Source: Desulfobacteraceae bacterium
GTDB lineage: Bacteria; Desulfobacterota; Desulfobacteria; Desulfobacterales; JAABRJ01
Length of the DNA stretch: 64,000 bases
Direction: 5' to 3'
Assembly (NCBI GenBank): GCA_022340425.1
Contig: JAJDNY010000147.1
Location: 1 to 64,000 of the forward strand
In this document: one piece after another, positions 3,408 through 29,333 of the stretch
How positions within the stretch are numbered: position 1 is the stretch's first letter
Layout: each line of letters begins with the position of its first letter
Translations under genes and position numbers: made by a program
Notes under the pieces: model-generated
Seen by the model: only the letters and a program-made list of their open reading frames with translations
Told to the model about the DNA's origin: nothing
The model's database searches: none

Positions 3408-4097
3408 TCAGTTCAACCACGCCTGAACGACGTCCGCCCCGAGGCTGGCCGCCATGGCGATCATCACCATCCCCGACAGGATGTCGGAGTGGCGCCGGTA
3501 GCGGCGGGCCAGCCCGGAGGCGCCGGTTCCCAGAAGCAGCAGTCCGGGCAGGGTGCCGAGGCCGAAGGCGAGGGTCATCAGGGCCCCCGGCAGGAGCCCC
3601 CCGGCCGGCAGGGCCCGGGCAAAGGCGGCGAAGGACAGGCCGCAGGGCAGAAACCCCAGCGCCATCCCGAGGACCAGCATGCCGCCCGCGCTGCGGCCGC
3701 CACCGGCCGAGCGCAGGATGCGGCCGAAGCCGGGGATCTTATCGGGTGCGGCCAGAGACATCCAGGGCGGCTCGCGAATGATTTCAAGCCGCGCGAGCCC
3801 GAAGACCAGGAGAAACCCCGCGGCCAGGAGCGAGAAGCCGACCTGCAGGCGGGCGATCCAGGCCAGGGGGTCCAGCCCGCTGCGGCCGGCCAGCTGCGAG
3901 AGGCCAAGTCCCACCGCGCCCATGGCGCCCCCCACGGCAGTGTAGGTCCCGATGCGTCCCAGGTGGTAGAAGAGGTGGGCGCTCATGTGGCCGGTGCGAC
4001 CCGGGAAGGCGAACACCAGCGGGCCGCACATGCCGACGCAGTGGCCGGTCCCGAGGATGCCCAGCAGAAAGAGGGCGTATAGGTCCGCGTGGGGCAT
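3408..4097 (-). CDS. TauE/SafE (UreH/DsbD-like) membrane protein
   Basis: About six transmembrane helices start with 'LYALFLLGILGTGHCVGMCG'. The HC-x3-C motif in the first helix and the mirrored 'GFLPCGLSFAAFARAL' are typical of the UreH/DsbD_2 branch of the TauE/SafE superfamily. Such genes often sit beside cbb3 oxidase assembly genes (ccoI, ccoS), where copper handling is the favoured role. Here the cbb3 locus lies ~12 kb away and the divergent neighbour is an unusual Cys-rich transporter cluster. The start at 4097 is supported by AAAGGA upstream; a longer frame to 4184 lacks a good ribosome-binding site. Copper or thiol transport is inferred, not shown. Confidence 0.8.
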   Translation of the reverse strand: MPHADLYALFLLGILGTGHCVGMCGPLVFAFPGRTGHMSAHLFYHLGRIGTYTAVGGAMGAVGLGLSQLAGRSGLDPLAWIARLQVGFSLLAAGFLLVFGLARLEIIREPPWMSLAAPDKIPGFGRILRSAGGGRSAGGMLVLGMALGFLPCGLSFAAFARALPAGGLLPGALMTLAFGLGTLPGLLLLGTGASGLARRYRRHSDILSGMVMIAMAASLGADVVQAWLN

Positions 4098-4365
4098 GCA
4101 GCCGTTTCCTTTGATCCGGGCGCGGGGTGCGGCCGGCGGTTGGGTGCACGGCGGGCCGGGCGCCTGCCCGTCGAGGGATCCCACGATAGCACTTTCCGGG
4201 ACCCCTTGAAAGGGTGTGCGGGCGGCTGCGCGGGTTGCTATTTGGCGGGTTTTCGCTTAGGAATACCCATGGCCGCGGACCGTACGCGCGGCCGCCTTTT
4301 CGCTGAACCCCCAACCTTTGTTCACGGCCCCGGTGGTGCTTTTAACCGCCGCCCGTCAATCGCCC

Positions 4366-4719
4366 ATGCCCACGGCCCCTTTCCCTTCAGACCGGTTAGA
4401 CCGCGCCCGGCGCCTGCTGTGGCTGGCGTTCCTGTGCTGTCTTGCGCCGCTGGCCCTGATGGCCGTCGACGGGCTGATACGCGCCGGCCACACCACCGCG
4501 CCCCTGGCGGTCTGGGTGCGCCCCCTGGGCGGTCCGGCCCTGGCCCTGGTTCCCGCCGGTCAGCCCCTGCGGCGTTTCGGTCGCGACCCGGGGGCGCTCT
4601 CCGGCGATTTCTCGCCCTGGCTGGGCGGCGTCGACCCGGACCCGGCCCGGCTGACGCTGCAACCCGCCGCCAAAAGCCGCGACCCCCTGAGAGCCCCCGA
4701 TGAAGCCGCTGAACCGTAA
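4366..4719 (+). CDS. Small membrane-anchored protein, first gene of ABC cluster
   Basis: The 117-residue product has a charged N-terminus and one hydrophobic segment ('LLWLAFLCCLAPLALMAVDG'), consistent with a signal anchor, then a Pro/Gly-rich periplasmic domain. I do not recognise the family. Its stop overlaps the start of the permease gene by 20 bases, so translation is likely coupled and the product is probably a periplasmic partner of the transporter. No clear ribosome-binding site marks the ATG; a longer frame begins at 4318. Confidence 0.55.
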   Translation: MPTAPFPSDRLDRARRLLWLAFLCCLAPLALMAVDGLIRAGHTTAPLAVWVRPLGGPALALVPAGQPLRRFGRDPGALSGDFSPWLGGVDPDPARLTLQPAAKSRDPLRAPDEAAEP

Positions 4720-5860
4720 TCCCCTCCTGCTCTGGGCGGCGCGGGAGGTCATCCGGCGCCCCGCGCCGGCCCTGCTGATGGCCGCCGCCCTGGCTCTGCT
4801 GCTGACCGTGGGCGGCACGGTGCTGCTCTTGGGTCAGGGTCTCAGCCAGACGGCCCGCCGCCTGCTGACCCACGGGCCGGATCTCGTGGTGCGCCGCTTA
4901 AACGCCGGCGGGTGGGCGCCGCTGCCGGCCGCCGAGGCCCTGGTGGCAGCCCGCGGGGTGCCCGGTGTGACCCGGGCCCGGGCCCGCGTCTGGGGGGTGG
5001 CGGCCGGCCCGGCCGGGCCGCTGATGGTGGTCGCCTGGGGGTCCGCGATGCTTCCCCCCGGCGGGGACGGCGGGACGCTTGCGGCCCCCCGGTCGGGGGA
5101 GGCCCTGCTGGGCCCGGGGGTCGACCCCGGCCCGGATCCCCGGCGCCTTGCGCTTTCCGCCGCCGCGGCGCTTGAATTCCGGCCGGTTGGGCGCCTGCCG
5201 GCCGAAACCGCCCTCATAGGTCAGGATGTGGTCCTGGTGCATCCCGCCGATGCCCGCCTCTTGCTGGGGTTGGCGCCCGGGGAGGCCGTCGATCTGGCTG
5301 TTGACGTATTTCACGCCGAAGAAGCCGCCGCCCTCCTGCCCGAGCTCGCCGCCGCCTTTTCCTGGCCGGTTCGCATCACCGCCCGCAGCGAAGCCGTTGG
5401 CCTCTATACCGGTGGGCTGGCACGCCGCGGCGGGCTGATGCTGATCGCCGGTATTCCCGCCGTCCTGGCGCTGGTCCTGGTGGTGGCCGGTGCCGTGCGC
5501 GAGGCCGTCGGCCGGCGGCGCGAGGTGGGGCTGCTCAAGGCGCTGGGCTGGACCACCGGCGATGTGGTGCGGCTGCAAGTTTACCGCGCGCTATTGATCG
5601 CCCTGCCGGCCGTTTGCCTCGGCATGCTGGCGGCCTACGCGCTGGTCTTCCCCCCGGGGGTGAGCTGGCCGGGCAGCCTGCTCTTCGGCTGGCGCACGGC
5701 CCCGCCGCGGCTTTTCCTGGACCCCACCGGGGCGCTGCTGACCCTGCTAGAGCTGGGCGCTCTTGTGGTGGGGCCCTACCTGGCGGCGGTGCTCTTGACC
5801 AGCCTGCAGGGGGCGGCCGCCGATCCCCAGGACCTCTTAAAAGGCGAGGGGCTCTTGTGA
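4700..5860 (+). CDS. FtsX/MacB-like ABC transporter permease
   Basis: The topology is that of the FtsX/LolC/MacB permease family: one N-terminal helix ('PALLMAAALALLLTVGGTVL'), a large periplasmic domain (~residues 45-240), then three C-terminal helices with the family signature 'GRRREVGLLKALGWTTGDVV'. Members of this family usually work as mechanotransmitters or pass lipophilic or protein cargo rather than doing classical import. The gene ends in TGATG, giving a one-base overlap with the ATPase gene. The cargo is unknown; the downstream Cys-rich membrane protein is the best clue. Confidence 0.85.
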   Translation: MKPLNRNPLLLWAAREVIRRPAPALLMAAALALLLTVGGTVLLLGQGLSQTARRLLTHGPDLVVRRLNAGGWAPLPAAEALVAARGVPGVTRARARVWGVAAGPAGPLMVVAWGSAMLPPGGDGGTLAAPRSGEALLGPGVDPGPDPRRLALSAAAALEFRPVGRLPAETALIGQDVVLVHPADARLLLGLAPGEAVDLAVDVFHAEEAAALLPELAAAFSWPVRITARSEAVGLYTGGLARRGGLMLIAGIPAVLALVLVVAGAVREAVGRRREVGLLKALGWTTGDVVRLQVYRALLIALPAVCLGMLAAYALVFPPGVSWPGSLLFGWRTAPPRLFLDPTGALLTLLELGALVVGPYLAAVLLTSLQGAAADPQDLLKGEGLL

Positions 5861-6537
5861 TGGAGGGGCTCGCCACCCACCACGTAGATCTGGTTTACGG
5901 CGCCTCCACGGAAAGCCCCCGGACCGTGCTGCGGGATGTCTCGGCGGTTTTCCCCCGCGGCGGCCTTTCCCTTGTCACCGGCGCCACCGGGGCCGGCAAG
6001 AGTTCCCTTTTGCACCTGCTGGCCGGGCTCCTGCGTCCCACCGCAGGGGAGGTGCTGGCCGACGGTGCACCCATCTCGCGCTGGGCGGCGGGCCACCGCG
6101 ACCGCTGGCGGCGGCGGGTGGGGGTCGTCTTTCAGTCCGCCAACCTCTTCAGCGGGCTGAGCGTGCTGGAGAATGTGATCCTGCCGCTGGTGCCCCGCGG
6201 CCGGTGCCTGGCCGCGCTGCGCGCCACGGGCCATGAGGTGCTGGCCGAACTGGGGCTGGCGGATCTCGCCGGTGCCTGGGCCGAGCGGCTCTCTGGCGGG
6301 GAGCGGCAGCGCGTGGCCCTAGCCCGGGCCCTTGTGGGGCGGCCGGATTTCCTGATCGCCGACGAGCCGACCGCCCATCAGGACCCCGAGAACGCCGCCC
6401 GGGTGCTGCAGGCCCTGGCGGCCTGCCGGGAGCGCAACGCCGCGGTGGTGGTGGCCGCCCATGACCCCCGGGTAATCGCCGCCGGGGTGGCCGACCGGCA
6501 CTGGCACCTGGCCGCGGGCCGATTGGCGGCCGAATGA
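5860..6537 (+). CDS. ABC transporter ATP-binding protein (LolD/MacB-like)
   Basis: A complete single nucleotide-binding domain of 225 residues: Walker A 'GATGAGKSS', Q-loop 'VVFQSANLFSG', signature 'LSGGERQRVALARAL', Walker B 'FLIADEPTA' and the switch His in 'VVVAAHDPRV'. Sequence and length fit the LolD/FtsE/MacB class that pairs with FtsX-like permeases, which is the gene just upstream. The Walker B region reads 'ADEPTAHQDPE' where 'GNLD' is usual. The start at 5860 overlaps the permease stop, so a longer upstream in-frame extension is not used. Confidence 0.9.
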   Translation: MEGLATHHVDLVYGASTESPRTVLRDVSAVFPRGGLSLVTGATGAGKSSLLHLLAGLLRPTAGEVLADGAPISRWAAGHRDRWRRRVGVVFQSANLFSGLSVLENVILPLVPRGRCLAALRATGHEVLAELGLADLAGAWAERLSGGERQRVALARALVGRPDFLIADEPTAHQDPENAARVLQALAACRERNAAVVVAAHDPRVIAAGVADRHWHLAAGRLAAE

Positions 6538-7571
6538 TCTGGCACCCGCTGGTGCTGGCAGTGGTCGGGCTCGATCTTTTGGGCCTGTTGGCGCTTCTCT
6601 TCGCCGCCGCGGCCGCCCTGCAGGTGCTGCTGCACTGGGCGCCGGAATCGGCGGCGGCCGGCCAGATCATTCTGGAGCGCCGCGCGGAAACCGGCGCGCT
6701 GGCCGCGGGCTTTGGTTTCTGGGCCCTTCTCGCGGCCAGCCTGCTGCTGGTGATTGGCATCACCAACGTGCTGCCCGAACTGGTTCCCGGGGCCATGTGT
6801 GGCACCGGCGTGCTCCAGGCCACCGCCGGGGCGGGTCCCCGGGCGTTGGGCTTCCGGCTGGGGGCTCTGGTGCTGCTCTGCGGCTGGCGAATGGTGGAGA
6901 CCGTCAACCGCCGCCACCCTTTGCGGCCCTTGACCCTGCCCGCCGCCCGGCTCTTGCTGCTGGCGCTGCCCCTTTGCCTGCTGGCGGCCGGTGCTACCTT
7001 CCAGGCCTTGGCCGGCCTTGACGTGCACCAGCCGGTGGACTGCTGCGCGGTTGTCTATGACCAGTTCCGCCCGCCGGAGCTCGCCGGCCGCGCTGCCGGG
7101 CTGCCGGACCGCCTCTGGGTGGGGCTTTTCGCCCTGGGCGGGGTGGTTTTAGGTGCCTTGTCCCTGAGGCTTGCGCGGGCCCCGGACCCCATCCGGGGAC
7201 CGTGGCCGGGGGCCTTGGCCGGCGTCGCCCTGCTGTGGGCCGGGGCGGCGGCGGTCGCCCTGGTGCGGGTGCTGGCCGCCTACACCTACGAGGTGCTGCA
7301 CCACCACTGCCCCTGGTGCCTATTTTTGCCCGAACACCGCTTTGTGGGGTTTCCCCTGTTCGGTCTGCTGATGCTGACGGTCCTGGAGGGTTGCGGGGTC
7401 TGGACGCTGGCGCTTGTCGTCCGGCGCTGCGGCCTGCCGCTGCCCGGCGCCGCATCCCGGCTGCGGGCCGGCGGGTGGCGCATCCTCTGGGCGGCGGTCC
7501 TTTTCAGCCTGCTGGCGGCCGCGCCGGCCCTTTGGTGGCGATGGCGTTTCGGGGTCTGGATCGGGGGGTAA
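6534..7571 (+). CDS. Cys-rich polytopic membrane protein with CPWC motif
   Basis: 345 residues with about eight transmembrane segments, starting four bases inside the ATPase gene. Conserved-looking Cys/His motifs sit near membrane boundaries: 'GAMCGTGVLQA' (~residue 85), 'VDCCAVVYDQF' (~167) and 'HHHCPWCLFLPEH' (~258). The CPWC resembles a redox-active CxxC or a metal site. The last two motifs could form one site together. I cannot assign a family. Coupling to an ABC exporter-like pair suggests handling of a metal, haem or thiol compound across the inner membrane, but this is inference. Confidence 0.7.
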   Translation: MIWHPLVLAVVGLDLLGLLALLFAAAAALQVLLHWAPESAAAGQIILERRAETGALAAGFGFWALLAASLLLVIGITNVLPELVPGAMCGTGVLQATAGAGPRALGFRLGALVLLCGWRMVETVNRRHPLRPLTLPAARLLLLALPLCLLAAGATFQALAGLDVHQPVDCCAVVYDQFRPPELAGRAAGLPDRLWVGLFALGGVVLGALSLRLARAPDPIRGPWPGALAGVALLWAGAAAVALVRVLAAYTYEVLHHHCPWCLFLPEHRFVGFPLFGLLMLTVLEGCGVWTLALVVRRCGLPLPGAASRLRAGGWRILWAAVLFSLLAAAPALWWRWRFGVWIGG

Positions 7572-7594: not shown

Positions 7595-8500
7595 TTACTT
7601 CATCAGCAACAGGCTCAGGGCCATGACCACCATTCCGGCAACCAGTCCGAACAGGCTGTCGTGCCCCTTGCCGTAGGCCCTGCTGGTGGGCAGCAGTTCG
7701 TCCAGGCTGATGTAGACCATGATACCCGCCACCCCGCCGAAAAGGACCCCCATGACCTCGGGGGGAATCAAACCATTTTGGGTTCCAACCGTGAAACGCA
7801 ACCCCAAATAGGCCAAAAGAGCGCCCACCGGCTCAGCCAATCCGCTGAGAAATGAATACAGGAAAGCCTTTTGACGGTCTCCGGTGGCGTAAAAAATCGG
7901 AACTGACACACTGATGCCTTCGGGAATGTTGTGCAGGGCGACCGCCACGGCGATGGCAACACCCAGGCTCGGGTCCTGCAACGCGGCCAAAAAGGTGGCC
8001 AGGCCTTCGGGGAAATTGTGAATGCCGATGGCCAGGGCAGTAAACAACCCCATGCGCAGGAGTTTTCGATGCTGCGCTTCGTGATCGTTGTCCCCTATCG
8101 CTGACGCCATTGAAGCCTTGGTGACTGCCGGTGCACACTCCGGCAATGGCGCCGATTCATTGTGCAGGGGCCGGGTCTCTTCTTCCGGATGGATCTCGTG
8201 GGGGTTTTCGGCCGACGGTATCAGGTTGTCGATCACGCCGATCAGCAACATGCCGCCGAAAAATGAAGCCGCATTGATCCAGTGCCCCAAGGTCTCGCCA
8301 TACCGCCCTGTGAGCGCGTCCACACCTTTGAAGAAGATTTCCACGAACGAGACATAGAGCATCACACCGGCCGAAAAACCCGTCACCACCGACAGGAAAC
8401 GATAGTCGGTGCGCTTGGCCGTAAAGGCGATGACGCTGCCGATTCCGGTGGCAAGGCCGGCAAAAACGGTCAGCCCCAGTGCAAACCACACTTCATTCAT
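7595..8500 (-). CDS. zupT: ZIP-family metal transporter ZupT
   Basis: Eight predicted helices with the two ZIP metal-site signatures: '[14 protein letters not shown]' (helix IV) and '[14 protein letters not shown]' (helix V). A long acidic/His loop between helices III and IV ('[18 protein letters not shown]') is typical of ZupT, which takes up zinc and other divalent metals. The length (301 aa) is somewhat above E. coli ZupT because of this loop. GGAG lies upstream of the ATG. GC content and codon use are visibly lower than in the genes on both sides, which hints at separate acquisition. It is convergent with the ABC cluster, 23 bases apart. Confidence 0.92.
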
Positions 8501-16602: not shown

Positions 16603-19062
16603 TCAGGCGGTCGGCCGCATCAGCCGCAGGGTGTTGCCGATCACCGTCAGGCTGCTTAGCAGCATGGCGCAGACGGCCACCAGGGGGGTCAGTAGACCCG
16701 ACATGGCCACCGGAATGGCGATTAAATTGTAGATGAAGGCGCAGGCCAAGTTCTGTCGGATCTTGGCACTGACCCGCCGGCCCAGCCCCAGGAAGTCCAT
16801 GATCTGGGCCGGGTCGCCGCGCATCAGGGTGATGTCGGCGGTTTCCCGGCTGAGCTGGCTGCCGGAGTGCACGGCGATCGCCAGCTGGGCCTGGGCCATG
16901 GCCGGGGCGTCGTTAACCCCGTCGCCGACCATGGCGACGCACGCCCCGCGCTCTTGGAGGGCCTTGACGTAATCGGCCTTTTCGTGGGGCCGCAAGCCCC
17001 CGGCGGCGGCCGGGATGTCCAGCCGCCGGGCGACCCGCCGGGTGGTGCCCTCCTCGTCGCCGGAGATCAGGGCCAGGGCGTAGCCCATCTGCTTGAGGGC
17101 CTTCAGGGTGTCCGCGGCGGACGGCCGCAGGGCGTCGCCGAATTCCAAAACCGCCGCCGGCCGGTCGTCCAGGGACAGGTAGACCCGCGATTGGGGGCTG
17201 TCCGCGTCGTCCGCTGGCCCCGGCGCCGGGGGGGGCGTGTCGCTGCCTGCAAACCGTGCGGAGCCGATGCGAACCGGGCGGCCCGCCAGGCGGGCGCTGA
17301 TCCCGTCCGGGGAAGTTTTGCGATCCGTCAACGGCAGGTGCGCGAGGCCGTCGGCCTCGGCCTTGCGCTTTATCGCCGCCGCGATGAAGTGCGACTGGCC
17401 AGCTTCCAGCGAATGAGCCAGCTGCAGGGCATCGGCCGGGTTCATGGCTCCCGCCGGCCGTACCGCCAGCAGCCGCCAGCGGCCGTCGGTGACCGTGCCG
17501 GTCTTGTCGAACACCAGGGTGTCGATCTGTTGCGCCCTTTCGAAGGCCGAGAATTCCCGCACCAGGATGCCGTGCCGGCCCGCCACCGAAATTCCGGCCA
17601 CCCGCGCCAGGGGGATGGCCACGCCCAGGGCGCAGGGGCATGAGATCACCAGCACGGTGACGGCGCGGACCATCGCCGCTTCAACCGTCAGCCCCAACCC
17701 CAGACACGCCAGGCCGGTCAGTAGGGCCAGGAGCACAATGGCGGGCACGAACCACTGCAGCAGACGGTCGGTGCGCCCCTCCAGAGGGGTCCTGGCGTCC
17801 AGGGCCTGTTGCATGATGGCGATCATCTGCCCCAGGGTCGAATCCGGGCCGACCCGCTCCGCCCGCAGGGTCAGGTCCCCCCGGATCACCCGCACCCCGC
17901 TGCGCAGGCGCTCGCCGGGTCTTTTGGCCAGCGGTTGCGGCTCGCCGGTGAGGGAGGATTCGTCGACCTCGGCGCTGCCCGAGAGGATCGTGCCGTCGGC
18001 TGCGACAACCTCGCCGGGCGCCACCTGGAAGCTGTCCCCCGGCTGGAGCATCTCGGCGGCCACGTAGCGCCCCCCGGGCGCAGCAGGCGTCAGCAGGCGC
18101 ACCTTGGCCGGCTGGAGGGCGAAAAAATTGCCCAGCTCCTCCTGGACGGCGTCCTTGGCCCGGCGCTCCAGGGCTTTGCCCAGCAGCACCAGTGTGGTGA
18201 GCATCGCGGCGGTGTCGAAGTACAGGTGGATGCTGCCCAGGAGCAGGTTGTAGGTGCTGAAGCCGAAGGCGGCCAGGGCGCCCACGGCCACCAGGGTTTC
18301 CATGCCGAAATGGCCGGTCCGCGCCGCCGCCAGGGCTTTTTGGTAGATCGGCCCCCCGCCGTAGACCAGCACCGCACTGGCCATGATGAAGATCGGCCAG
18401 GAGATCTTGTGGACCGCTTCGGCCGCAAGGGCGCTGAAAAACCCCGTGTAAAGCGCGAAAGAGAGCATCATGACGTTCATCGTGAGAAAGGCCGAGACCC
18501 CGAAGCGGATGAACTCGCGCCGTCTCTCCCGGGCGGCCCCGGCCTCGTTGGGAAGCGCGGCGCGGTAGCCCAGCTTTTCGACGCTGCGGATGATCTCGGC
18601 CGGCGCGCTGCGCACCGGGTCGAAGCGGCATTGCAGCCGGTCGGTGGCGAAGTTGCATGCGGCCTCTAGGACGCCCCGCTGGCGGCGCAGGCTGTCCTCG
18701 ATGACCCAGGCGCAGGCGGGGCACCACATGCCGCCGATCTGGAGGGAGAGTTGCAGCGTTGCGCCTTCACCGGTGGCGGAGGGTGGGGGCGGGGGTGGGG
18801 GTGGGGTCGCGGACCCCTGCTGGCGCCGGGCGAGGTCCGCCGCGTCGCGCGGGATGACGCCCATCTCCTGGCAGCGGCGGAACAGGTCGGTGTTGCGAAA
18901 CTCGGCCGGGTCGCCCACTTCGGCGGCGGCCAGGAGCATGACGAAAACCTGGCGGCAGCCCATGCAGCAGAAATGGTAGCTGCGCCCCTCCAACTCGTGG
19001 GAAATGGTTCCGAAGCGCAGCGGGAGCCCGCACAGGTCGCAGGCCGCGGTGGTCTCGGGCAT
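16603..19062 (-). CDS. ccoI: Copper-translocating P1B-type ATPase (CcoI/FixI)
   Basis: Domains in order: an N-terminal Cys-rich metal-binding domain ('CDLCGLPLRFG', 'YHFCCMGCRQVF'), a poly-Pro linker, a heavy-metal-associated domain with 'MWCPACAW', eight transmembrane helices with the CPC metal motif 'ISCPCALGVAIP' (~residue 474), and the phosphorylation loop 'DKTGTVTDG' (~518) with 'MVGDGVNDAPA'. The N-terminal Cys domain plus HMA domain is the pattern of CcoI/FixI, which delivers copper for cbb3 oxidase maturation. It is the last gene of the respiratory block that encodes that oxidase. It follows the cytochrome gene by 13 bases. Confidence 0.92.
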   Translation of the reverse strand: MPETTAACDLCGLPLRFGTISHELEGRSYHFCCMGCRQVFVMLLAAAEVGDPAEFRNTDLFRRCQEMGVIPRDAADLARRQQGSATPPPPPPPPSATGEGATLQLSLQIGGMWCPACAWVIEDSLRRQRGVLEAACNFATDRLQCRFDPVRSAPAEIIRSVEKLGYRAALPNEAGAARERRREFIRFGVSAFLTMNVMMLSFALYTGFFSALAAEAVHKISWPIFIMASAVLVYGGGPIYQKALAAARTGHFGMETLVAVGALAAFGFSTYNLLLGSIHLYFDTAAMLTTLVLLGKALERRAKDAVQEELGNFFALQPAKVRLLTPAAPGGRYVAAEMLQPGDSFQVAPGEVVAADGTILSGSAEVDESSLTGEPQPLAKRPGERLRSGVRVIRGDLTLRAERVGPDSTLGQMIAIMQQALDARTPLEGRTDRLLQWFVPAIVLLALLTGLACLGLGLTVEAAMVRAVTVLVISCPCALGVAIPLARVAGISVAGRHGILVREFSAFERAQQIDTLVFDKTGTVTDGRWRLLAVRPAGAMNPADALQLAHSLEAGQSHFIAAAIKRKAEADGLAHLPLTDRKTSPDGISARLAGRPVRIGSARFAGSDTPPPAPGPADDADSPQSRVYLSLDDRPAAVLEFGDALRPSAADTLKALKQMGYALALISGDEEGTTRRVARRLDIPAAAGGLRPHEKADYVKALQERGACVAMVGDGVNDAPAMAQAQLAIAVHSGSQLSRETADITLMRGDPAQIMDFLGLGRRVSAKIRQNLACAFIYNLIAIPVAMSGLLTPLVAVCAMLLSSLTVIGNTLRLMRPTA

Positions 19063-20405: not shown

Positions 20406-21338
20406 CTACGGCTCGTAGGCCGCATCGATCCCTCTGGGTTCCGTGTTGGCATCCGACTGGTTGATGAAGTAGACGGCCACGTAATTGCCGACTTCCCAGA
20501 TTTTCTCCGATTCCAGCTCTTTTTTGAAATAGGGCATGGCCGTGCCCGTGATGCCGTTCATGATCTGGTAGTAGAGGATGCCGCCGGAAATCTCGCGGTT
20601 TTTGAGGATCGTGAAATTCAGCGGCGGCGGGTAGAGGTAGGGCTGGGCCGGCCCCATCCCGTCGCCCACCGGGCCGTGGCAGCCCAGGCAGAAATCCTGG
20701 TAGATCTTGTGCCCGCGCGCCAGCCCGGCCTCGGAGGTCGGGTAGGGGTTGGGCAGGTTGCGCCAGCCTTCGGGCACCGTTTCGGCCAGCCACGCCACGT
20801 TGGCCTCGGGGCCGGCCTCATAGGCCCGGATGGCTTCCTGCTTCCAGAAGCGCTGGCGCTCCATGCGGCGGTCGGCCTGTTTTTGCCCCAGCCCCTGGAC
20901 ATAGGCGGTCAGGTCTTCGAGGTTCTGCTGCCCCAGGTAGGCCACGGCCGGCATGATGGACAGCGTCCGGGTGTAGCGCGGGTTGGTGAAATGCGCGAGG
21001 TGCCAGTCGTCGGGGTGCTCGCCGCCCTCCTGGGAGAGGTCCGGTCCGGTGCGGGCCGAGCCCAGCAGGATCGGCTGGTCCATGATGTAGTCGCCGGCCT
21101 GGGCGATGCGCTCCGCCCCCAGGCCCCAGTCGATGGTCCGGATGGACTGGCTGTGGCAGTAGACGCAGCCGTTGGCGATGTAAAGCGCCCGGCCCCGGGC
21201 CTCCACCGCGCTGCGCGGGCGAAAGATCTCCGAGGGGTCCTCGGTCCGGGTAGCCCAGGGCATGTAGACCACCATGAAAACGATGGCTGCCAGAAGCAGC
21301 AGGCTGCCGATCACAACGGCCGTGGGCGTCATCTTCAT
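20406..21338 (-). CDS. ccoO: Dihaem CcoO-type cytochrome c subunit
   Basis: One N-terminal helix, then a CcoO/FixO domain with 'GRALYIANGCVYCHSQSIR' and a distal Met in 'LSIMPAV', then a second class I cytochrome domain with 'DFCLGCHGPVGDGMG' and Met in 'GTAMPYFKKE'. Canonical CcoO has one haem; the second resembles a CcoP haem domain, so this appears to be a CcoO-CcoP fusion that carries electrons to CcoN. The start overlaps the ccoN stop by four bases (ATGA), so the subunits are translationally coupled. Confidence 0.88.
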   Translation of the reverse strand: MKMTPTAVVIGSLLLLAAIVFMVVYMPWATRTEDPSEIFRPRSAVEARGRALYIANGCVYCHSQSIRTIDWGLGAERIAQAGDYIMDQPILLGSARTGPDLSQEGGEHPDDWHLAHFTNPRYTRTLSIMPAVAYLGQQNLEDLTAYVQGLGQKQADRRMERQRFWKQEAIRAYEAGPEANVAWLAETVPEGWRNLPNPYPTSEAGLARGHKIYQDFCLGCHGPVGDGMGPAQPYLYPPPLNFTILKNREISGGILYYQIMNGITGTAMPYFKKELESEKIWEVGNYVAVYFINQSDANTEPRGIDAAYEP

Positions 21339-22705
21339 CGGGCTTCTCCCGGGTTGAAATACAGGGTTCGCAGGATGTTATAAAGCCCCAGGACCGCCGA
21401 GGTGAAAATCATCAGCCCGAGCGACGCGCGGTAAACGTAGTAAACGTGGATCTGCGGGATCACCCGGTAGACGGTTTCGCCGTTGAGCCAGGCGTGCCCC
21501 TGGACCAGGCCGGCGATGGTCAGTACCGAGGTGAAGCCCACCACCCCGATCAGCACCATCCAGTACTGGAAATCGGCCAGGAAGCGGCTGTAGAGGGGTT
21601 TGCCGGCGATCCGCGGCAGGACGTAGTAGAGCCCGCCCAGGGCGATCATGCCGGCGAAGCCCAGCACCCCGACGTGGGCGTGGGCCACCACCCAGTTGTT
21701 GAAATGGGTGACCCGCTGGACCTGCGGCAGGGCCATCATCGAGCCCTGGATGCTGACGAAAAAATAGAGGATCGTGCCGGTGAAGACGAACTTGGCGCCG
21801 ATGTCGGCGTGGATCGCCCCCAGCCGGCCGCGGGCGGTGTACCAGATGTTGATCAGAAAGGCCATCACCGGGATGACCATGGCGACGCTGTCCACGATGG
21901 AGATTACCTTGAGCCAGGTGGGCACCGGCACCTGGAGCAGGTGGTGGGTGCCGATGTGGGTGTAGACCACGATCAGCGACCAGAAGCCCAAAAGCGACAG
22001 GGTGTGGCTGTAGAGCGGGCTCTGGCAAGCCCTTGGGATGACGTAGTAGGCCACCCCGGCGGCCAGCGGGGTCAGCAGCAGGCCGAAGACGTTGTGGCCG
22101 TAAAACCACAGCAAAATGGCGTCGGGAATCCCCACCAGGGCGCCGCTGGTGGGCTGCCAGATGACGTTGCCGAGGCTGAAGGTCGCGCCGGTCAGCACCA
22201 CCGCGGCGCACACGTACCAGACCGACACGTAGAGCACCGGCTCCCGGCGCTGCTTGACGGTCATGATCAGGTTGATGAAAACCAGCACAAAGAGCGCCAC
22301 CACCAGCATGTCCACGGGCCAGATCATCTCGGCGTATTCGCGCCCCTGGCTGTGGCCGGCGGCCAGGCTGACCACCGCCGCCACCAGGGTCAGGTTCCAG
22401 AGCAGCACCGTGGCGAGGCCCAGTTTGTCGCTGTAGATCCGGGTGCGCAGCAGGCGCGGAAAATAGTAAAAAGCCGCCCCCAGCAGACCGGGGGTGACGA
22501 ACCCGAAGAGCACCAGATTGACGTGGATGGGGCGGATCCGGCCAAACATCAGCCAGCCGATGTTTTCCGTCAGGTCCGGCGCAATCAGCTCGGTTGCACC
22601 CAACAGCCCCATGAAGGTGGCGACCACCAGCCACAAGCCCGAGGTGATGCAGAAGCCCTTGGCCGTCAGATACGGCTGGTCAGCGGTGTGGACATCGGTT
22701 GTCAA
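21335..22705 (-). CDS. ccoN: cbb3-type cytochrome c oxidase catalytic subunit
   Basis: About twelve helices with the haem-copper oxidase His ligands: 'GRIRPIHVNLVLFG' (low-spin haem), 'LLWFYGHNVFGLLL' and 'YTHIGTHHLL' (CuB), and 'NNWVVAHAHVG' (both haems). At 456 residues it is the usual size for CcoN. It reduces oxygen to water with high affinity, taking electrons from the c-type subunits. The frame opens with TTG at 22705, preceded by a strong AAAAGGAG. It follows the ACIII gene actA, so the two complexes are co-expressed and may form a supercomplex. Confidence 0.93.
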   Translation of the reverse strand: MTTDVHTADQPYLTAKGFCITSGLWLVVATFMGLLGATELIAPDLTENIGWLMFGRIRPIHVNLVLFGFVTPGLLGAAFYYFPRLLRTRIYSDKLGLATVLLWNLTLVAAVVSLAAGHSQGREYAEMIWPVDMLVVALFVLVFINLIMTVKQRREPVLYVSVWYVCAAVVLTGATFSLGNVIWQPTSGALVGIPDAILLWFYGHNVFGLLLTPLAAGVAYYVIPRACQSPLYSHTLSLLGFWSLIVVYTHIGTHHLLQVPVPTWLKVISIVDSVAMVIPVMAFLINIWYTARGRLGAIHADIGAKFVFTGTILYFFVSIQGSMMALPQVQRVTHFNNWVVAHAHVGVLGFAGMIALGGLYYVLPRIAGKPLYSRFLADFQYWMVLIGVVGFTSVLTIAGLVQGHAWLNGETVYRVIPQIHVYYVYRASLGLMIFTSAVLGLYNILRTLYFNPGEAR

Positions 22706-22791: not shown

Positions 22792-23304
22792 TCAGTTGTG
22801 GCACGCCAGCCAGCAGTCCAGGTTGGCGCCCCGCTCGCGGTGGCAGCCGATGCAAAATCCCATCATGAACCTCTGGCCCTTGAGGCGGTCCATGGTCTCC
22901 ACCGCCCCGTGGCACTCCGCACAGGCCACGGCTTTCTTGATGTGCCGCTGATGGTTGAAAAAGACATGCTCGGGCACGTAGAAGACCTTGCGCCAGGGGG
23001 TCGGGGTGCGGGTGTCGAAATAGGCGTGTTCCTTGAGGATCTGGGGGTGGTTGGCGATGATGTAGTTGTGGCAGTAGAGGCACTTTTCCACCGGCGGAAT
23101 GCCGGGATAGGTGGCGCGCCCCACGTAGGGGTGGCAGAATTCGCACTGGATCGCCTTGACCCCGCTGTGCAGCCGGTGGCTGAAAGGGATCGGCTGCGCC
23201 GGACCGATGTCGGTGGCCGGCGGCGTGTAGAAGAAATAGAGAAAGCCGACGATCAGCAGAACACAAATGGCTGTCCAGGCAATCGAGGTTCGGTTTGAGC
23301 TCAA
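22792..23304 (-). CDS. actA: ActA, pentahaem cytochrome c of alternative complex III
   Basis: An N-terminal helix is followed by five haem-binding sites: CEFCH, CLYCH, CAECH, CIGCH and a C-terminal CWLACH with three residues between the cysteines. Motifs such as 'GIPPVEKCLYCH' and the terminal 'RGANLDCW' match the ActA subunit of alternative complex III, which passes electrons from the iron-sulfur subunit to cytochrome c. The frame starts with TTG at 23304, with GGAG upstream. It lies 16 bases after actF; ActA genes are more often first in ACIII operons. Confidence 0.85.
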   Translation of the reverse strand: MSSNRTSIAWTAICVLLIVGFLYFFYTPPATDIGPAQPIPFSHRLHSGVKAIQCEFCHPYVGRATYPGIPPVEKCLYCHNYIIANHPQILKEHAYFDTRTPTPWRKVFYVPEHVFFNHQRHIKKAVACAECHGAVETMDRLKGQRFMMGFCIGCHRERGANLDCWLACHN

Positions 23305-23320
23305 GGGGCGGCTCCTGGTT

Positions 23321-24529
23321 TCAAGTCGTTTCCGGGGCCTGCGCCATGGCGATTTCAGGAAACAGGTCCATGAAATAGGCCAGTGCCAGGATCATCAGAC
23401 TCATAAACCCCAGGGTGATCAGCGCCTCGCTCAGCCCCACCGGGATGGCCGCGGCGGCGCCATGGGCAAAGGCCGGGCCGATCAGCAGGAGGTGCTCCAG
23501 CCAGATGCCGGCGATGATCAGGGTGCAGAGCGCCATCATGATCACCGGGCGGGTCTTGATCTTCTTGTTGATCAAGAGGACGAAGGGGATGATGAAGGCC
23601 GCGGCGAAGACCGCCCATGCCAGCGGCTGCCAGGGCATGCGCATCACCCGCTCGATGACGTAGCTGCTCTCCTCGGGGATGTTGCCGTACCAGATGACCA
23701 CCAGCTGAACGTAGAAAAAATCGCCCCAGACCAGGCAGAAGGCGAAAAACAGCTTGCCCAGGTCGTGGAACTGGCTGCTGCTCAGCCCCGCGGTCTCGCC
23801 CTGGTTGAGGCGCATCACCGCCGCCAGGATGATCAGCCCGCCCAGGCCGAGGTAGAAGGCCTTGACGAAGGTGTAGGCCCCGAAGAGGGTGGATATCCAG
23901 TGGGGGTCCATGCTCATCACCAGGTCGAAGCCGATCAGCGAAAGCACCACCGCAAAGGCGATGATGTAGAGCAGGCCGAAGACCGTCTTGCGCTGCTGCC
24001 AGCGCTCGGGGGCGTTTTGGAGCGCCGTCTGGCCCCGGGTGAAAAAACCCCGGATGCCGCGGTCCGCATCCCCCGGCACCAGCTTGGGCTTGAGGGCGTG
24101 GTAGAGGTAGCCGAACCCCAGGCCGTAGAGCAGCAATAGGCCGGCGCAGTCGCGCCAGAAGAGAAACGGCACGTTCAGCCAGACCTCCTTGCCGTGGAGG
24201 TCCTCGTGCAGCCACGGGAAGATGTGCTCACTTCCCAGGAAGAGCCCCAGAAAGAGCACGAAGGACAGGGGGAAAAAGGCGGCGAAGGCCTCCGCCAGGC
24301 CCGAGAGCCGGCCGGTCCAGCGGGCCTTAACCAGATGCATGAGGGCCGAGAAGAGCAGCCCCCCCTGGGCGATGGCGGACCACACGAGAAAATTGATCAG
24401 GTAGGCCTGCCAGGCCCGCTGGGGGTGCCCCCCGACCAGTTGAAGGAGAAACGTCAGCAGGGCGACCGCCGTCAGCAGAGCACCGCCGAGGATCAGTGGT
24501 TTGTTTTTGAGCGATAGAACCGGCTTCAT
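23321..24529 (-). CDS. actF: ActF, NrfD-like integral membrane subunit of ACIII
   Basis: 402 residues with about ten helices, homologous to ActC/NrfD proteins but of the ActF type: 'FLVWSAIAQGGLLFSALMHL', 'PHWISTLFGAYTFVKAFYLG' and 'KLFFAFCLVWGDFFYVQLVV'. ActF is one of the two large membrane subunits thought to bind menaquinol and conduct protons. The gene follows actD by 56 bases in the order actB-C-D-F-A. Confidence 0.9.
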   Translation of the reverse strand: MKPVLSLKNKPLILGGALLTAVALLTFLLQLVGGHPQRAWQAYLINFLVWSAIAQGGLLFSALMHLVKARWTGRLSGLAEAFAAFFPLSFVLFLGLFLGSEHIFPWLHEDLHGKEVWLNVPFLFWRDCAGLLLLYGLGFGYLYHALKPKLVPGDADRGIRGFFTRGQTALQNAPERWQQRKTVFGLLYIIAFAVVLSLIGFDLVMSMDPHWISTLFGAYTFVKAFYLGLGGLIILAAVMRLNQGETAGLSSSQFHDLGKLFFAFCLVWGDFFYVQLVVIWYGNIPEESSYVIERVMRMPWQPLAWAVFAAAFIIPFVLLINKKIKTRPVIMMALCTLIIAGIWLEHLLLIGPAFAHGAAAAIPVGLSEALITLGFMSLMILALAYFMDLFPEIAMAQAPETT

Positions 24530-24585
24530 GGCACCTTAAACCCCGTGCGGGTGTGTCGGTTGGCTGCCGGCAGGGGCCCCTGCCT

Positions 24586-25095
24586 TCATGCTTCGAAAAC
24601 CCGAGCTTGGCCGCCTTTGCGGCGGAAATAATCCTCCAGTTCGGCCTGGCCGTCTTCGCTGCAGGCCGCCAGAACACCGAAATGGGAGCCCGAGCAGCGC
24701 GGGTCGTAGTGCTGGAGACCCCCGTAGTCCGGCAGGTCGGTCTGGGTGATCAGGCCGATCACGTTGCCGAAGACGGCGAAGAGGATCGTGAATTCGAAGC
24801 CCACGATAAAAAAGGGGATCAGCGAGACCACCGGTTTGCCCGAGACGATCAGCCCCCAGCGCGTGGCGGTGAAGATCGCCAGCAGAAAACCGGTGAAAAA
24901 GCCGATGATCCCGCCGGCCAGGGTGAACCAGCCGACGGCGCTTTTCTTGACCTTCAGCACCTGGGCCAGCTTGTGGCTGGGGATCGGGCTGTGGACCCGG
25001 GCGAGCTTCCAGGGGGTGTTGGGCAGGTCCGCGGCCACGGCCGCCGCCTGGTCCTCGTCGCTGAAGAGCCCCATGACATAGCGTTCAGCCGGCAT
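24586..25095 (-). CDS. actD: ActD (DUF3341) membrane subunit of ACIII
   Basis: 169 residues with two helices ('LAGGIIGFFTGFLLAIFTAT' and 'IPFFIVGFEFTILFAVFGNV') and the DUF3341 layout; ActD stabilises the ACIII membrane domain. I place the start at 25095 rather than 25110 because AAGGAGGACC lies at the right distance. This start sits inside the end of actC (11-base overlap), so the two are coupled. The C-terminal 'HYDPRCSGSHFGVLAAC' has Cys residues of unknown relevance. Confidence 0.9.
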   Translation of the reverse strand: MPAERYVMGLFSDEDQAAAVAADLPNTPWKLARVHSPIPSHKLAQVLKVKKSAVGWFTLAGGIIGFFTGFLLAIFTATRWGLIVSGKPVVSLIPFFIVGFEFTILFAVFGNVIGLITQTDLPDYGGLQHYDPRCSGSHFGVLAACSEDGQAELEDYFRRKGGQARVFEA

Positions 25096-26401
25096 GCGGT
25101 CCTCCTTCATGGAGGGTTTCCTTGATCTCGGTCATCGAGACCGACGGCAGGTGTTTGACGAACAGCAGGAAGAGAAAGAAGAACAGGCAGAAGCTGCCGA
25201 GCATGATGCCGAACTCGATCGCGGTCGGCGCGTAGAGGCCCCAGGCGTGGGGGATGAAATCGCGCGCGACGCTGGTGATGATGATCACGAAGCGCTCGAA
25301 CCACATGCCGACGTTGACCAGCAGGGAGAGCCCGAACAGCCAGCGGATCGAGGTGCGGATCTTTTTGAAGAAGAACAGCAGGGGGATTATGGTGTTGCAG
25401 ACCACCATGATCCAGAACCCCACCCGGTAGTCGCCCAGCATGCGATAGCGGAAGACCTCAATTTCCACCGTGTTGAAGCTGTACCAGGCGATGAAAAATT
25501 CGGTGGCGTAAGCGAACCCGACGATCATGCCGGTCAGGATGATGGTCTTGGCGACGTTTTCCAGCACATCGACCGTGATGATCTTTTCGTAGTGGAAGAT
25601 ATGCCGCAGCGGGATCATCAGGGTCAGCACCATCGCCAGCCCCGAGTGGATGGCGCCGGCCACGAAATAGGGCGCGAAGATCGTGGTGTGCCAGCCGGGC
25701 ACCACCCCCAGGGCGAAGTCCCAGGAGACCACGCTGTGGACCGAAATCACCAGTGGCGTGGCCAGGGCCGCGAAGAAGAGGTAGCCGCGGGTGTAGTGGC
25801 GCCACTGCTCGTGCTTGCCGGTCCAGCCAAGCGAGATCACCGTGAAAACCTTTTTACGCAGCCCGGTGGCGCGGTCGCGCACGGTGGCCAGGTCGGGTAG
25901 CATGCCGGTGTACCAGAAGAGCGAGCTGACCGTCAGGTAGGTGCTGATGGCCACCACGTCGAACATCAGCGGTGACTGGAAATTGGGCCACAGGGTCCGC
26001 TGGTTGGGGTAGGGCAGCATGTAGTAGACCGCCCAGACCCGCCCCAGGTGGATGAAGGGGAAAAGCCCGGCCGTGCAGACTGCAAACACGGTCATGGTTT
26101 CGGCGGCGCGCGCGATCGGGTTGCGCCAGCCGGCCCGAAAGAGGTGCAGGATCGCCGAGATCAGGGTGCCCGAGTGGGCGATCCCCACCCAGAAGACGAA
26201 GTTGATCAGGTAGGTGCCCCAGGCCACCGGGTTGTTCTGGCCGCCGACCCCGATGCCCACGAAGATCTGGTAGAGCCAGCAGGCAGCCCCCAGGAGAATG
26301 CCCCCGGCCAGCACGGCGACGGCCGCCCAATAGCCCGGCCGGGGCTTCTCCAGGGTTTGCAGGACTGTCTGGTCGATGGTCGCGTAAGTGAGCTCTGACA
26401 T
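25085..26401 (-). CDS. actC: ActC, NrfD-like integral membrane subunit of ACIII
   Basis: 438 residues with ten helices and clear ActC signatures: 'WGTYLINFVFWVGIAHSGTL', 'GLFPFIHLGRVW', 'VVSWDFALGVVPGWHTTIF' and 'AYATEFFIAWYS'. ActC lies next to ActB and is thought to hold the quinol-oxidising site. It begins seven bases after actB ends. Confidence 0.93.
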   Translation of the reverse strand: MSELTYATIDQTVLQTLEKPRPGYWAAVAVLAGGILLGAACWLYQIFVGIGVGGQNNPVAWGTYLINFVFWVGIAHSGTLISAILHLFRAGWRNPIARAAETMTVFAVCTAGLFPFIHLGRVWAVYYMLPYPNQRTLWPNFQSPLMFDVVAISTYLTVSSLFWYTGMLPDLATVRDRATGLRKKVFTVISLGWTGKHEQWRHYTRGYLFFAALATPLVISVHSVVSWDFALGVVPGWHTTIFAPYFVAGAIHSGLAMVLTLMIPLRHIFHYEKIITVDVLENVAKTIILTGMIVGFAYATEFFIAWYSFNTVEIEVFRYRMLGDYRVGFWIMVVCNTIIPLLFFFKKIRTSIRWLFGLSLLVNVGMWFERFVIIITSVARDFIPHAWGLYAPTAIEFGIMLGSFCLFFFLFLLFVKHLPSVSMTEIKETLHEGGPHAG

Positions 26402-26408
26402 GTCTGGC

Positions 26409-29333
26409 CTATATCTCCTGAACCACTTTGCGCAGGTAAATGACCGCCGGTTTGGTGTTCAGATAGCCCATCACCTGGTAGGCGCGGCGGTCCATGATCA
26501 TCCGGCGCACCCGGCTGCCGGGCTCCATCAGGTTGCCGAAGACCAGCGCGCCGGTGGGGCAGGTCTGCAGGCAGGCGGGCTGGATTTCACCGTCGCGGAT
26601 GGCGCGGCCTTCGTTTTTGGCGGTGTTGTGGGCCTCCTTGATGCGTTGGATGCAAAACGAGCACTTTTCCATGACCCCCTTGCTGCGGGCGGTGACGTCC
26701 GGGTTGAGCTGCAGATTCAGCGGCTGGGGCCACTGCCAGGTGAACCAGTTGAAGCGCCGCACCTTGTAGGGGCAGTTCTGGGAGCAGAAGCGGGTGCCGA
26801 TGCAGCGGTTGTAGATCTGGTTGTTGAGCCCCTCCTTGGAGTGGTGCGGGGCGTAGACCGGGCAGACCGCTTCGCAGGGCGCGTTGTCGCAGTGCTGGCA
26901 CATCAACGGCAGGAAGATCACCTTGCGCTCGTCCTCGGGGTCCAGGTAGCGCTCCACCCGCAGCCAGGCCATTTCGCGGCCCTCGACGATGTGCTGGGCG
27001 CCCACCACCCCGATGCTGTTCTCGGCGTAGCAGGCCGCCGCGCAGGCGCCGCAGCCGATGCAGCGGTCCAGGTCGACCACCATCGACCAGCGGTAACCGG
27101 CGTGGTCGTGGGGCGGGTAGGCGTCGCGCTTGGGGTCGTAGCCCTCGGGCAGCGGCAGGGTGAGGGGGAAATCCCACATGGTCAGCCCCGCCTTGGGCGG
27201 GTGCCCGTCGTGGTGCGACGCGCTTTGCAGGGGGGTCGTCAGGGCGATCTTGCGGCCGTGCTGGATCCGGCTGCCGTCGGTGTGGGCCAGCGTCATCCGC
27301 TGGCCGGTGGGGGCGAGCAGCACGTCGCCGGCGACGAATGCAGGCCCGCCGGAGACTGCGTCGGTTTCCGGCGGCAGCAGCCCCAGGGGGTCCACCCCCT
27401 CGCCCTGGGCATAGCGGCCGTAGGCGCTGTGGCCCTGGCCGATGGCCATCGCAAGCACACCGGGTCGGACCGCGACGGTCTCGTAGACCGGGGCCTCGAG
27501 GCTCCCGTGGGCGGAACGCAGCTGAACCACGTCCGCATGGCGGATTCCCTGGGAGGCCAGGGTCTCGGGGTGGGCCAGCAGTGGGGTCTGCCAGGCCACC
27601 TTGGTCAGCGGGTCGGGGATTTCGCAGAGCCAGGGCCGGTTGGCGCCCCGGCCGTCAAAAAACCGGATGGAGGGCGCGGCCACCAGCACCTGGCCGGGCG
27701 GGGGGGCGGGCAGGGCCCCGAAACCGGACGGCAGTTCGGAGGGCAAGGAGATCCCGGCGGGGCCGGCCGGAGGTTCGAAGCTGCCCCCGCGCTGCAGGAA
27801 CGCCACCCACTGGCGCTCCCCGTCGACGAGGCCTTGGGCGGCTAGACGCGTCTTGAGGTAGCCCCGGTAGTCGGGAGCGGGTGGATCGGCCTCGAAGGCC
27901 GCCCGCAGGATGACGTCCCCCAGGCTGGGGGCGGCGGTCAGGCTGCCCATGGCGGGCTGCAGGCCCGAGGTCAGGCCGCGTTTGCCACCGTATTCGTCCC
28001 AGCACTCCAGGGGCATGCCCACCGGCAGGACCAGGTCGGCCAGCAGGCTGGTCTCATCCATGAAATTGGCGGTGCTGACCACGAAGATGTCCGGCTGGGC
28101 GAGGCGTTCGGCGATGCCGGCGCCGGGCAGCGCAAACACCGGGTTGACGTTGTTGAGCAGCAGCAGGCCGGTGTTCTCGGGGGTCAGGTGCTTGAAAAAC
28201 GCCAGCACCGCGGCCCGCGGGGCCGCGGTCTCCACCCGGTGACGGCTTGCGCAGTCGATTCGGGCGAGATCCGGGTCCAGCACGCGGTTGAGGAGGTTGG
28301 CGGCCAGGTTGGCGCCCACGTCGGCCGCGCCGCTGCCGGCGGTGGCGGTGCCCAGGACCAGGGGGGCCTTGGCCGCTAGCAGGCGCGCCGCCAGGCGCTC
28401 CAAGGCCTCGGCGGGAATATCGGCTGTCTGGGCGACTTTTTCGGGACTGTAAGGGGCGCACTCGGCTGCCAGCGTCTGCCGCAGGGGGGCCGGCAGGTGC
28501 TTCCCGCAGCCGTTTTCAAGGGCCTGGCGGATCAGCCCCAAGGCCACGGTGCCTTCGCTGCCGGGGCGGCAGGCCAGCCAGAGGTCCGCGTTGGCGGCGG
28601 TGAGCGACTGGCAGGGGGCGATATGGGCGAAATACCCCTTGCGGCCCGCCTGCAGACCGTGCATGGCCTTGAACTGGCGGGCGTATTCGACCGGCGAGAG
28701 CCAGGTCTCGAGAAAATCGGCCCCCAGCGAGACCAGCAGGTCGGCCTGGTCCAGGCGGTAGGAGACCAGCCCGTCCACCCCGAAGGCCATCCGGTTGGCG
28801 GTTTTGAGGGCCTCGTAGGCGAAGGGTTCGAAGACCAGCGGCGGCGGTGAACCCCAGCGCTCCAGGGACTCGCCCAGAAGCGCGCTCAGACTTTCCCCGA
28901 CCACCTCGGTCACCACATGCACCCCGCCGGTCTCCGCGGCCGCCCGGACCTTTTCCTGCAGCAGCGCCTCGGCCTCGGCCCAGGAGAGCGCCCGCCAAGC
29001 GCCGTTTTCCCTGAGCTGCGGCGTCTTGAGGCGGTCCGGGTGGTAGACCGCCTGCAGCGCGGCCTGCCCGCGCATGCAAAGCGTGCCCTGGTTGATGGGG
29101 TGCAGCGGGTTGCCTTCGACTTTGACCACCCGCCCCTCGCGGCTGCGGGCCAGAAGGCCGCAGCCGGCCGGGCATTCGCGGCAGGTGGAGGCGTACCACA
29201 GCGCTTTGCCGGTGACCGTGTCGTCGGGGGCCTGAACCAGGGCGTAGATGGTTTTTTCGGGCTGGGAGGTGCAGCCGGCGGCAACCGAGACGCTGCCCAC
29301 ACCGGCCATCTTGAGAAAGGTTCGCCGATTCAT
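26409..29333 (-). CDS. actB: ActB, molybdopterin-fold/iron-sulfur fusion subunit of ACIII
   Basis: 974 residues. The N-terminus 'MNRRTFLKMAGVGSVSVAAG' is followed by Cys, a twin-arginine signal ending in a lipobox-like AAGC. Next comes a molybdopterin-oxidoreductase-like domain (~40-720) that keeps 'CRECPAGCG' and 'TLCMRGQ'. The C-terminal ferredoxin domain starts at ~757 ('LDRCIGCGACAAACYAEN') and has further Cys sets ('CQHCDNAPCEAVCP', 'CSQNCPYKVRRFNWF', 'KCSFCIQRIKEA'). This fusion is the hallmark of ActB of alternative complex III. It heads the 12.7-kb block, and its mRNA has a ~240-base leader from the promoter at 29580-29609. Confidence 0.93.
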   Translation of the reverse strand: MNRRTFLKMAGVGSVSVAAGCTSQPEKTIYALVQAPDDTVTGKALWYASTCRECPAGCGLLARSREGRVVKVEGNPLHPINQGTLCMRGQAALQAVYHPDRLKTPQLRENGAWRALSWAEAEALLQEKVRAAAETGGVHVVTEVVGESLSALLGESLERWGSPPPLVFEPFAYEALKTANRMAFGVDGLVSYRLDQADLLVSLGADFLETWLSPVEYARQFKAMHGLQAGRKGYFAHIAPCQSLTAANADLWLACRPGSEGTVALGLIRQALENGCGKHLPAPLRQTLAAECAPYSPEKVAQTADIPAEALERLAARLLAAKAPLVLGTATAGSGAADVGANLAANLLNRVLDPDLARIDCASRHRVETAAPRAAVLAFFKHLTPENTGLLLLNNVNPVFALPGAGIAERLAQPDIFVVSTANFMDETSLLADLVLPVGMPLECWDEYGGKRGLTSGLQPAMGSLTAAPSLGDVILRAAFEADPPAPDYRGYLKTRLAAQGLVDGERQWVAFLQRGGSFEPPAGPAGISLPSELPSGFGALPAPPPGQVLVAAPSIRFFDGRGANRPWLCEIPDPLTKVAWQTPLLAHPETLASQGIRHADVVQLRSAHGSLEAPVYETVAVRPGVLAMAIGQGHSAYGRYAQGEGVDPLGLLPPETDAVSGGPAFVAGDVLLAPTGQRMTLAHTDGSRIQHGRKIALTTPLQSASHHDGHPPKAGLTMWDFPLTLPLPEGYDPKRDAYPPHDHAGYRWSMVVDLDRCIGCGACAAACYAENSIGVVGAQHIVEGREMAWLRVERYLDPEDERKVIFLPLMCQHCDNAPCEAVCPVYAPHHSKEGLNNQIYNRCIGTRFCSQNCPYKVRRFNWFTWQWPQPLNLQLNPDVTARSKGVMEKCSFCIQRIKEAHNTAKNEGRAIRDGEIQPACLQTCPTGALVFGNLMEPGSRVRRMIMDRRAYQVMGYLNTKPAVIYLRKVVQEI

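Follow-up and report, generated by a model that had tools for sequence, protein, structure and literature searches.

A NosL-linked ABC operon encoding an eight-helix Cys/His membrane protein: a candidate copper-trafficking module of Desulfobacterota

The 64,000-nucleotide stretch analysed here (the window; positions 1 to 64,000 of contig JAJDNY010000147.1, from the Desulfobacteraceae bacterium assembly GCA_022340425.1) forms contig C147 in a genome of 3.97 Mb, referred to as G000, and carries at 4366-7571 a tight four-gene operon. The genes encode a small protein with one transmembrane (TM) helix, an FtsX-type permease, an ATP-binding cassette (ABC) ATPase and an eight-TM protein of 345 residues with conserved cysteines and histidines, the gene for which is single-copy in the genome (Table 1). 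As the initial annotation had stated, the frames overlap by 20 bases (small protein and permease), by 1 base (permease and ATPase) and by 4 bases (ATPase and eight-TM protein, at ATGA). The small gene most likely starts at the ATG at 4366; position 4098, from which the element was first delimited, is merely the edge of a divergent gene and not the start of the operon.

Neither the eight-TM protein nor the small protein matched any Pfam or NCBIfam model above its cut-off, in agreement with the initial annotation, which could place neither in a known family. The AlphaFold2 model of the eight-TM protein confirms the number of helices expected from the sequence (predicted local distance difference test, pLDDT, 87.7; predicted template modelling score 0.86), and its Cys-bearing loops follow TM2, TM4 and TM6, all on one face; because the loops on the opposite side are basic, the Cys motifs should face the periplasm. 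The motifs that had first drawn attention proved to be conserved. In an alignment of 50 homologues, Gly86, Met88, Cys89, Cys170, Cys171 and Cys259 are present in all 50, His257 in 48 and His258 in 45, while Cys262 is a cysteine in 43 and an aspartate in seven, the latter forming a whole subclade spread over several genomes in which the operon is otherwise retained. Judged from the alignment, this is a ligand-type pattern and not that of an obligate CXXC pair. At one locus (L059) the permease, ATPase and eight-TM genes occur twice in tandem, one copy reading CPFD and the other CPFC. No PDB entry matched the family in sequence, and Foldseek found no fold relative of the model in the PDB (best E 0.44); limited as that library is, the null result is meaningful because the same procedure recovers LolE, MacB, HrtB and FtsX for the permease. 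The family thus appears to be unnamed: Pfam and NCBIfam do not contain it, nor, by fold, does the PDB.

These observations bear on the idea of a thiol-disulfide relay, in which the eight-TM protein, as a VKOR- or DsbB-like oxidoreductase, would use its CPWC motif to keep the cysteines of the NosL or SCO copper proteins discussed below (or copper itself) reduced, with DsbD_2 and TlpA proteins as partners. The cysteine pairs do lie in the predicted periplasmic loops, residues 186-263 give a weak match to VKOR (PF07884; 16 bits, E 0.014), a DsbD_2 gene adjoins the operon, and TlpA-like proteins make up three of the 41 proteins encoded upstream of module loci. The VKOR score, however, lies below the gathering cut-off of 27.5, the orthologue at locus L010 and the distant members of the family show no such match, and neither VKOR, with its four-helix fold, nor DsbB is among the best PDB matches listed by Foldseek; on these grounds, and given the aspartate at position 262, membership of the VKOR family was rejected. 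As that substitution makes an obligate CXXC relay unlikely, we give the redox explanation a low probability.

The permease and the ATPase had been recognised correctly at the outset, with scores of 31.4 bits to Pfam FtsX (cut-off 25.5) and 112 bits to ABC_tran, and the ATPase has intact Walker A (GATGAGKSS), signature (LSGGE) and Walker B (LIADEP) motifs. The AlphaFold2 model of the permease (pLDDT 84) is closest to LolE in Foldseek (E = 5e-16) and also resembles MacB, HrtB (E 3e-10) and FtsX. An FtsX-domain permease with four TM helices and a large periplasmic domain, together with a LolD/FtsE-type ATPase, defines a type VII ABC system, a class that spends ATP on work in the periplasm and not on carrying a substrate through the membrane (PMC5985334). 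Membership of the Lol equivalogs is not indicated, the ATPase reaching 143 and 132 bits against LolD models with cut-offs of 308 and 360, and the permease of a distant clade 24.5 bits against the LolC/LolE model (cut-off 473). The CydDC thiol exporter was likewise rejected, as the permease is a separate FtsX-type protein and not a fusion of transmembrane and nucleotide-binding domains, and the ATPase scores 139 bits to TIGR02857 (cut-off 435). No Cys, His or Met beyond Met1 is invariant among 20 aligned permeases, which makes it unlikely that the permease itself binds copper. The small protein gave a weak profile-profile match (31 columns, probability 63) to its presumed counterpart, the small protein of the distant clade, characterized by LTDLxLxTEARYTRHPS..EHFPSG.

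Table 1. Coordinates of the operon, its conserved motifs and selected neighbouring genes in the window
Feature	Position	Strand	Evidence or remark
Small protein, 117 aa	4366..4719	+	One TM helix near the N terminus, short periplasmic tail
FtsX/LolCE/MacB-type (type VII) ABC permease, 386 aa	4700..5860	+	Pfam FtsX; AlphaFold2; Foldseek
ABC ATPase, LolD/FtsE-like	5860..6537	+	ABC_tran; Walker A, signature and Walker B intact
Eight-TM Cys/His membrane protein, 345 aa, unnamed family	6534..7571	+	Alignment; AlphaFold2 model
Met88-Cys89 (GAMC motif) of the eight-TM protein	6795..6800	+	Invariant, 50 homologues
Cys170-Cys171 of the eight-TM protein	7041..7046	+	Invariant, 50 homologues
HHHCPWC motif, residues 256-262 of the eight-TM protein	7299..7319	+	Alignment of 50 homologues
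Divergent DsbD_2 (PF13386) membrane protein, GHCVGMCGP motif	3408..4097	-	Pfam
CcoI/CopA-type copper P-type ATPase	16603..19062	-	TIGR01511, 441 bits (cut-off 397)
Divergent CcoN-type haem-copper oxidase subunit I	21335..22705	-	TIGR00780, 299 bits (below cut-off 583)

The distribution of the eight-TM protein connects the operon with NosL, whose role as a periplasmic Cu(I) chaperone is well established (PMC6530538, PMC7558416). Scanning GTDB genomes yielded 14 loci, nearly all labelled Desulfobacteraceae or other Deltaproteobacteria, and with a profile built from them the protein was detected in 56 of the 395 genomes sampled from the phylum, spanning 28 families; the sample was confined to the phylum, apart from one Myxococcales-labelled locus (L004), and no copy of the module was found among 72,556 plasmids. 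A contig labelled Cyanobium (L003; JALOOQ010000209.1) carries the operon with an eight-TM protein 82% identical to that of the window and is probably mis-binned. NosL (PF05573) is encoded in 50 of the 56 genomes with the eight-TM protein and in 22 of the 339 without it (Fisher odds ratio 120, p 5e-39), counts that span 28 families and ignore phylogeny. The linkage is also physical: in 40 of the 54 genomes tabulated a NosL gene lies within 6 kb of the locus, usually immediately upstream of the gene for the small protein, and the order NosL, small protein, permease, ATPase, eight-TM protein recurs in most loci across the 28 families, the distant clade included. Among orthologous loci with upstream DNA, leaving aside the window, its near relative L002 and L049, NosL stands beside the operon in nine of nine. 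As NosL occurs in 72 of the 395 genomes and nosZ in seven, most NosL proteins of the phylum are evidently not nitrous oxide reductase factors.

The operon-linked NosL proteins match solved NosL, and the C-x2-C-x-M motif and a later methionine are kept in all 36 examined. A lipobox-like motif was found by a simple pattern in just one of these 36, which speaks against a LolCDE-like machine dedicated to extracting NosL or another lipoprotein. Such an extractor would suit the permease, whose closest fold is that of LolCE, but the operon has a single permease gene and neither LolA nor LolB, the Lol pathway has no place for an eight-TM Cys protein, and we would scarcely expect this explanation to hold. 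G000 does possess a NosL orthologue, on other contigs than the operon and split by an assembly break into a C-terminal part (C145, 15457-15851) and an N-terminal part (C118, 1-295; L087/L088), which share an identical 28-residue overlap. Its score of 218 bits was obtained with a profile made from operon NosL proteins and therefore shows kinship to that group. A two-domain NosL-like protein is also encoded in G000, on contig C81.

Several further neighbours of the module are copper genes. In two genomes (G050 and G230; L069 and L070) the module ends a complete same-strand nosZ-D-F-L-Y cluster, in the order NosZ (803 bits to TIGR04246 in L069), NosD, NosF, NosL, a NosY-like ABC-2 permease, TlpA and a second NosL, followed by the small protein, permease, ATPase and eight-TM protein. 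In another (G025; L073), two SCO1/SenC genes stand at the usual position of NosL. Pumps of the resistance-nodulation-division (RND) family account for six of the 41 upstream proteins, CusA/CzcA-type genes adjoining the module in L062-L065, L076 and L085; the L064 pump scores 996 bits to Escherichia coli CusA versus 491 to ZneA and keeps the aligned Met residues. At L075 the NosL module is preceded by a TlpA-like gene and by genes for a MacAB-like ATPase, permease and adaptor. Within the clade of the window, L012 and L014 have CcoI/FixH-like genes next to the operon, and L010 has alternative-complex-III and cbb3 genes there; in the window itself, cbb3-like and alternative-complex-III-like genes, which the initial annotation had placed at about 9 kb, lie about 9-22 kb away.

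The initial annotation had left the cargo open between copper, haem and a thiol, and of these we infer copper, because of NosL in 40 of 54 loci, the nosZ clusters, SCO1, the CusA pumps and CcoI beside orthologues; the thiol option fared badly for the reasons given above. An HrtBA-like haem exporter, or a step in haem delivery to cytochrome oxidase, could draw on the resemblance of the permease to HrtB and on the oxidase and c-type cytochromes nearby in the window. However, many type VII proteins match the permease, LolE and MacB more strongly than HrtB, and NosL, SCO1, CusA and nosZ are partners for copper and not for haem, so that we consider a role in haem handling highly improbable.

On balance we favour the reading that the operon is a NosL-partnered, type VII ABC-driven inner-membrane module for copper trafficking, serving periplasmic delivery to respiratory cuproenzymes; we hold this to be probable, with appreciable room for doubt. 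The eight-TM family has conserved Cys and His residues and the permeases have none, type VII proteins work in the periplasm and NosL is a chaperone, which together suggest that the eight-TM protein would hold Cu(I) at a candidate periplasm-facing site formed by Met88/Cys89, Cys170/Cys171, Cys259 and neighbouring histidines. The ABC pair, a presumed homodimer of the permease with its ATPase, would not carry copper across the membrane; its use of ATP may instead drive a conformational change that moves Cu(I) between the eight-TM protein and NosL, with the one-TM protein as a possible adaptor in the hand-over. NosL would then supply a respiratory cuproenzyme. Both Cu(I) binding by the eight-TM protein and the direction of flow are proposed here on the basis of sequence and genome context.

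In the window's genome the client is probably the CuB centre of the cbb3-like oxidase, with NosL provided from another locus. The profile score and the retained GHN and THH histidines mark the single COX1 match in G000 as a divergent subunit of the C family (CcoN); it is the only haem-copper oxidase of the genome, and no nos_propeller match indicative of nosZ was found there. More widely, COX1 is associated with the eight-TM protein (35 of 56 genomes versus 94 of 339 others, odds ratio 4.3; by genus 30 of 43 versus 67 of 203, odds ratio 4.7), although not universally. The early suggestion of a part in cytochrome oxidase maturation thus gains support from this association and for the window's clade, but an oxidase cannot be the sole client, since 21 of the 56 genomes lack COX1; in other species the client may be nitrous oxide reductase or another enzyme.

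Several observations weigh against the proposed delivery module. NosL does not adjoin the operon in the window itself; just two of the 21 genomes without COX1 have nosZ; the eight-TM protein occurs without the ABC pair at two loci (L049 in G077 and L078 in G020); and the neighbours of CusA and MacAB type would fit copper export just as well. The last point leads to the strongest rival, copper defence, according to which the module would strip or export surplus copper from the periplasm or membrane, passing it via NosL to CusA- or MacAB-type pumps. The genomes without COX1 also fit such a function. Supply rather than removal, however, is indicated by the nosZ clusters of L069 and L070, SCO1 in L073, the cbb3 and CcoI genes of L010, L012 and L014 and the COX1 association, and in most loci there is no pump nearby; we therefore judge copper defence unlikely. 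As for the two eight-TM genes without an ABC pair, the L049 copy adjoins a DsbD_2 gene and the L078 copy an RND-like pump.

The divergent neighbour of the operon, initially flagged for its HC-x3-C motif, was identified as a DsbD_2 protein (124 bits), and its gene accompanies the operon in 12 of 12 loci of the window's clade with upstream DNA, L049 among them. On the other side, a ZupT-type ZIP transporter (7595-8500; 387 bits, cut-off 252) is convergent to the operon and is not conserved beside it in the other loci seen. At 22792-29333, the alternative-complex-III-like proteins score best, below cut-off, to models of Qrc (QrcA, QrcB, QrcC) and DsrP.

We found no published description of this gene set in the open-access literature (subscription journals lay outside the search), and the module is seemingly undescribed to date. 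It could also account for the many genomes that have NosL but no nosZ. We tentatively extend the proposal, at somewhat less than even odds, to the phylum as a whole: there NosL may mainly partner this module and not nitrous oxide reductase, and an unrecognised family of putative Cu(I)-binding eight-TM proteins, coupled to a type VII (mechanotransmission) engine, may load clients as varied as CuB oxidases, the CuZ/CuA centres of nitrous oxide reductase and others. If true, this would provide, alongside NosDFY, a second, general ATP-powered machine for copper insertion, one that includes a membrane metalloprotein with a new fold. The route of copper to CuB and CuZ/CuA, and the need for an ABC engine, are still poorly understood, and the module is a small set of genes, amenable to genetic tests, that has invariant candidate ligands.

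Compared with known systems, the module resembles the cbb3 copper assembly genes (CcoI, SCO/SenC, PCuAC) in being linked, within the clade of the window, with CcoI/FixH and cbb3-like genes and in having SCO1 instead of NosL at one locus, but it is not CcoGHIS or CcoA and has an ABC machine and an unnamed eight-TM protein. The VKOR family offers a CXXC motif after a TM helix and the weak profile match, and differs in fold and in that the second cysteine of the motif is dispensable here. With LolCDE, MacB, FtsEX and HrtBA the module has in common the Pfam FtsX family, the permease fold and the ATPase type, while it differs from them by a single permease gene, by the absence of LolA, MacA, TolC and EnvC partners and by copper proteins as operon partners. 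The best reading is that of a variant of the NosDFYL kind, which likewise combines an ABC pair with the NosL chaperone, is dedicated to the assembly of periplasmic copper centres and, in two genomes, has the module directly behind it. Unlike NosDFYL, whose NosY is of the ABC-2 type, the module uses an FtsX/MacB-type permease, has no NosD in the operon (in L069 and L070 nosD and nosY belong to the cluster as genes of their own), adds the eight-TM Cys protein and the one-TM protein, and is present in genomes without nosZ, G000 included.

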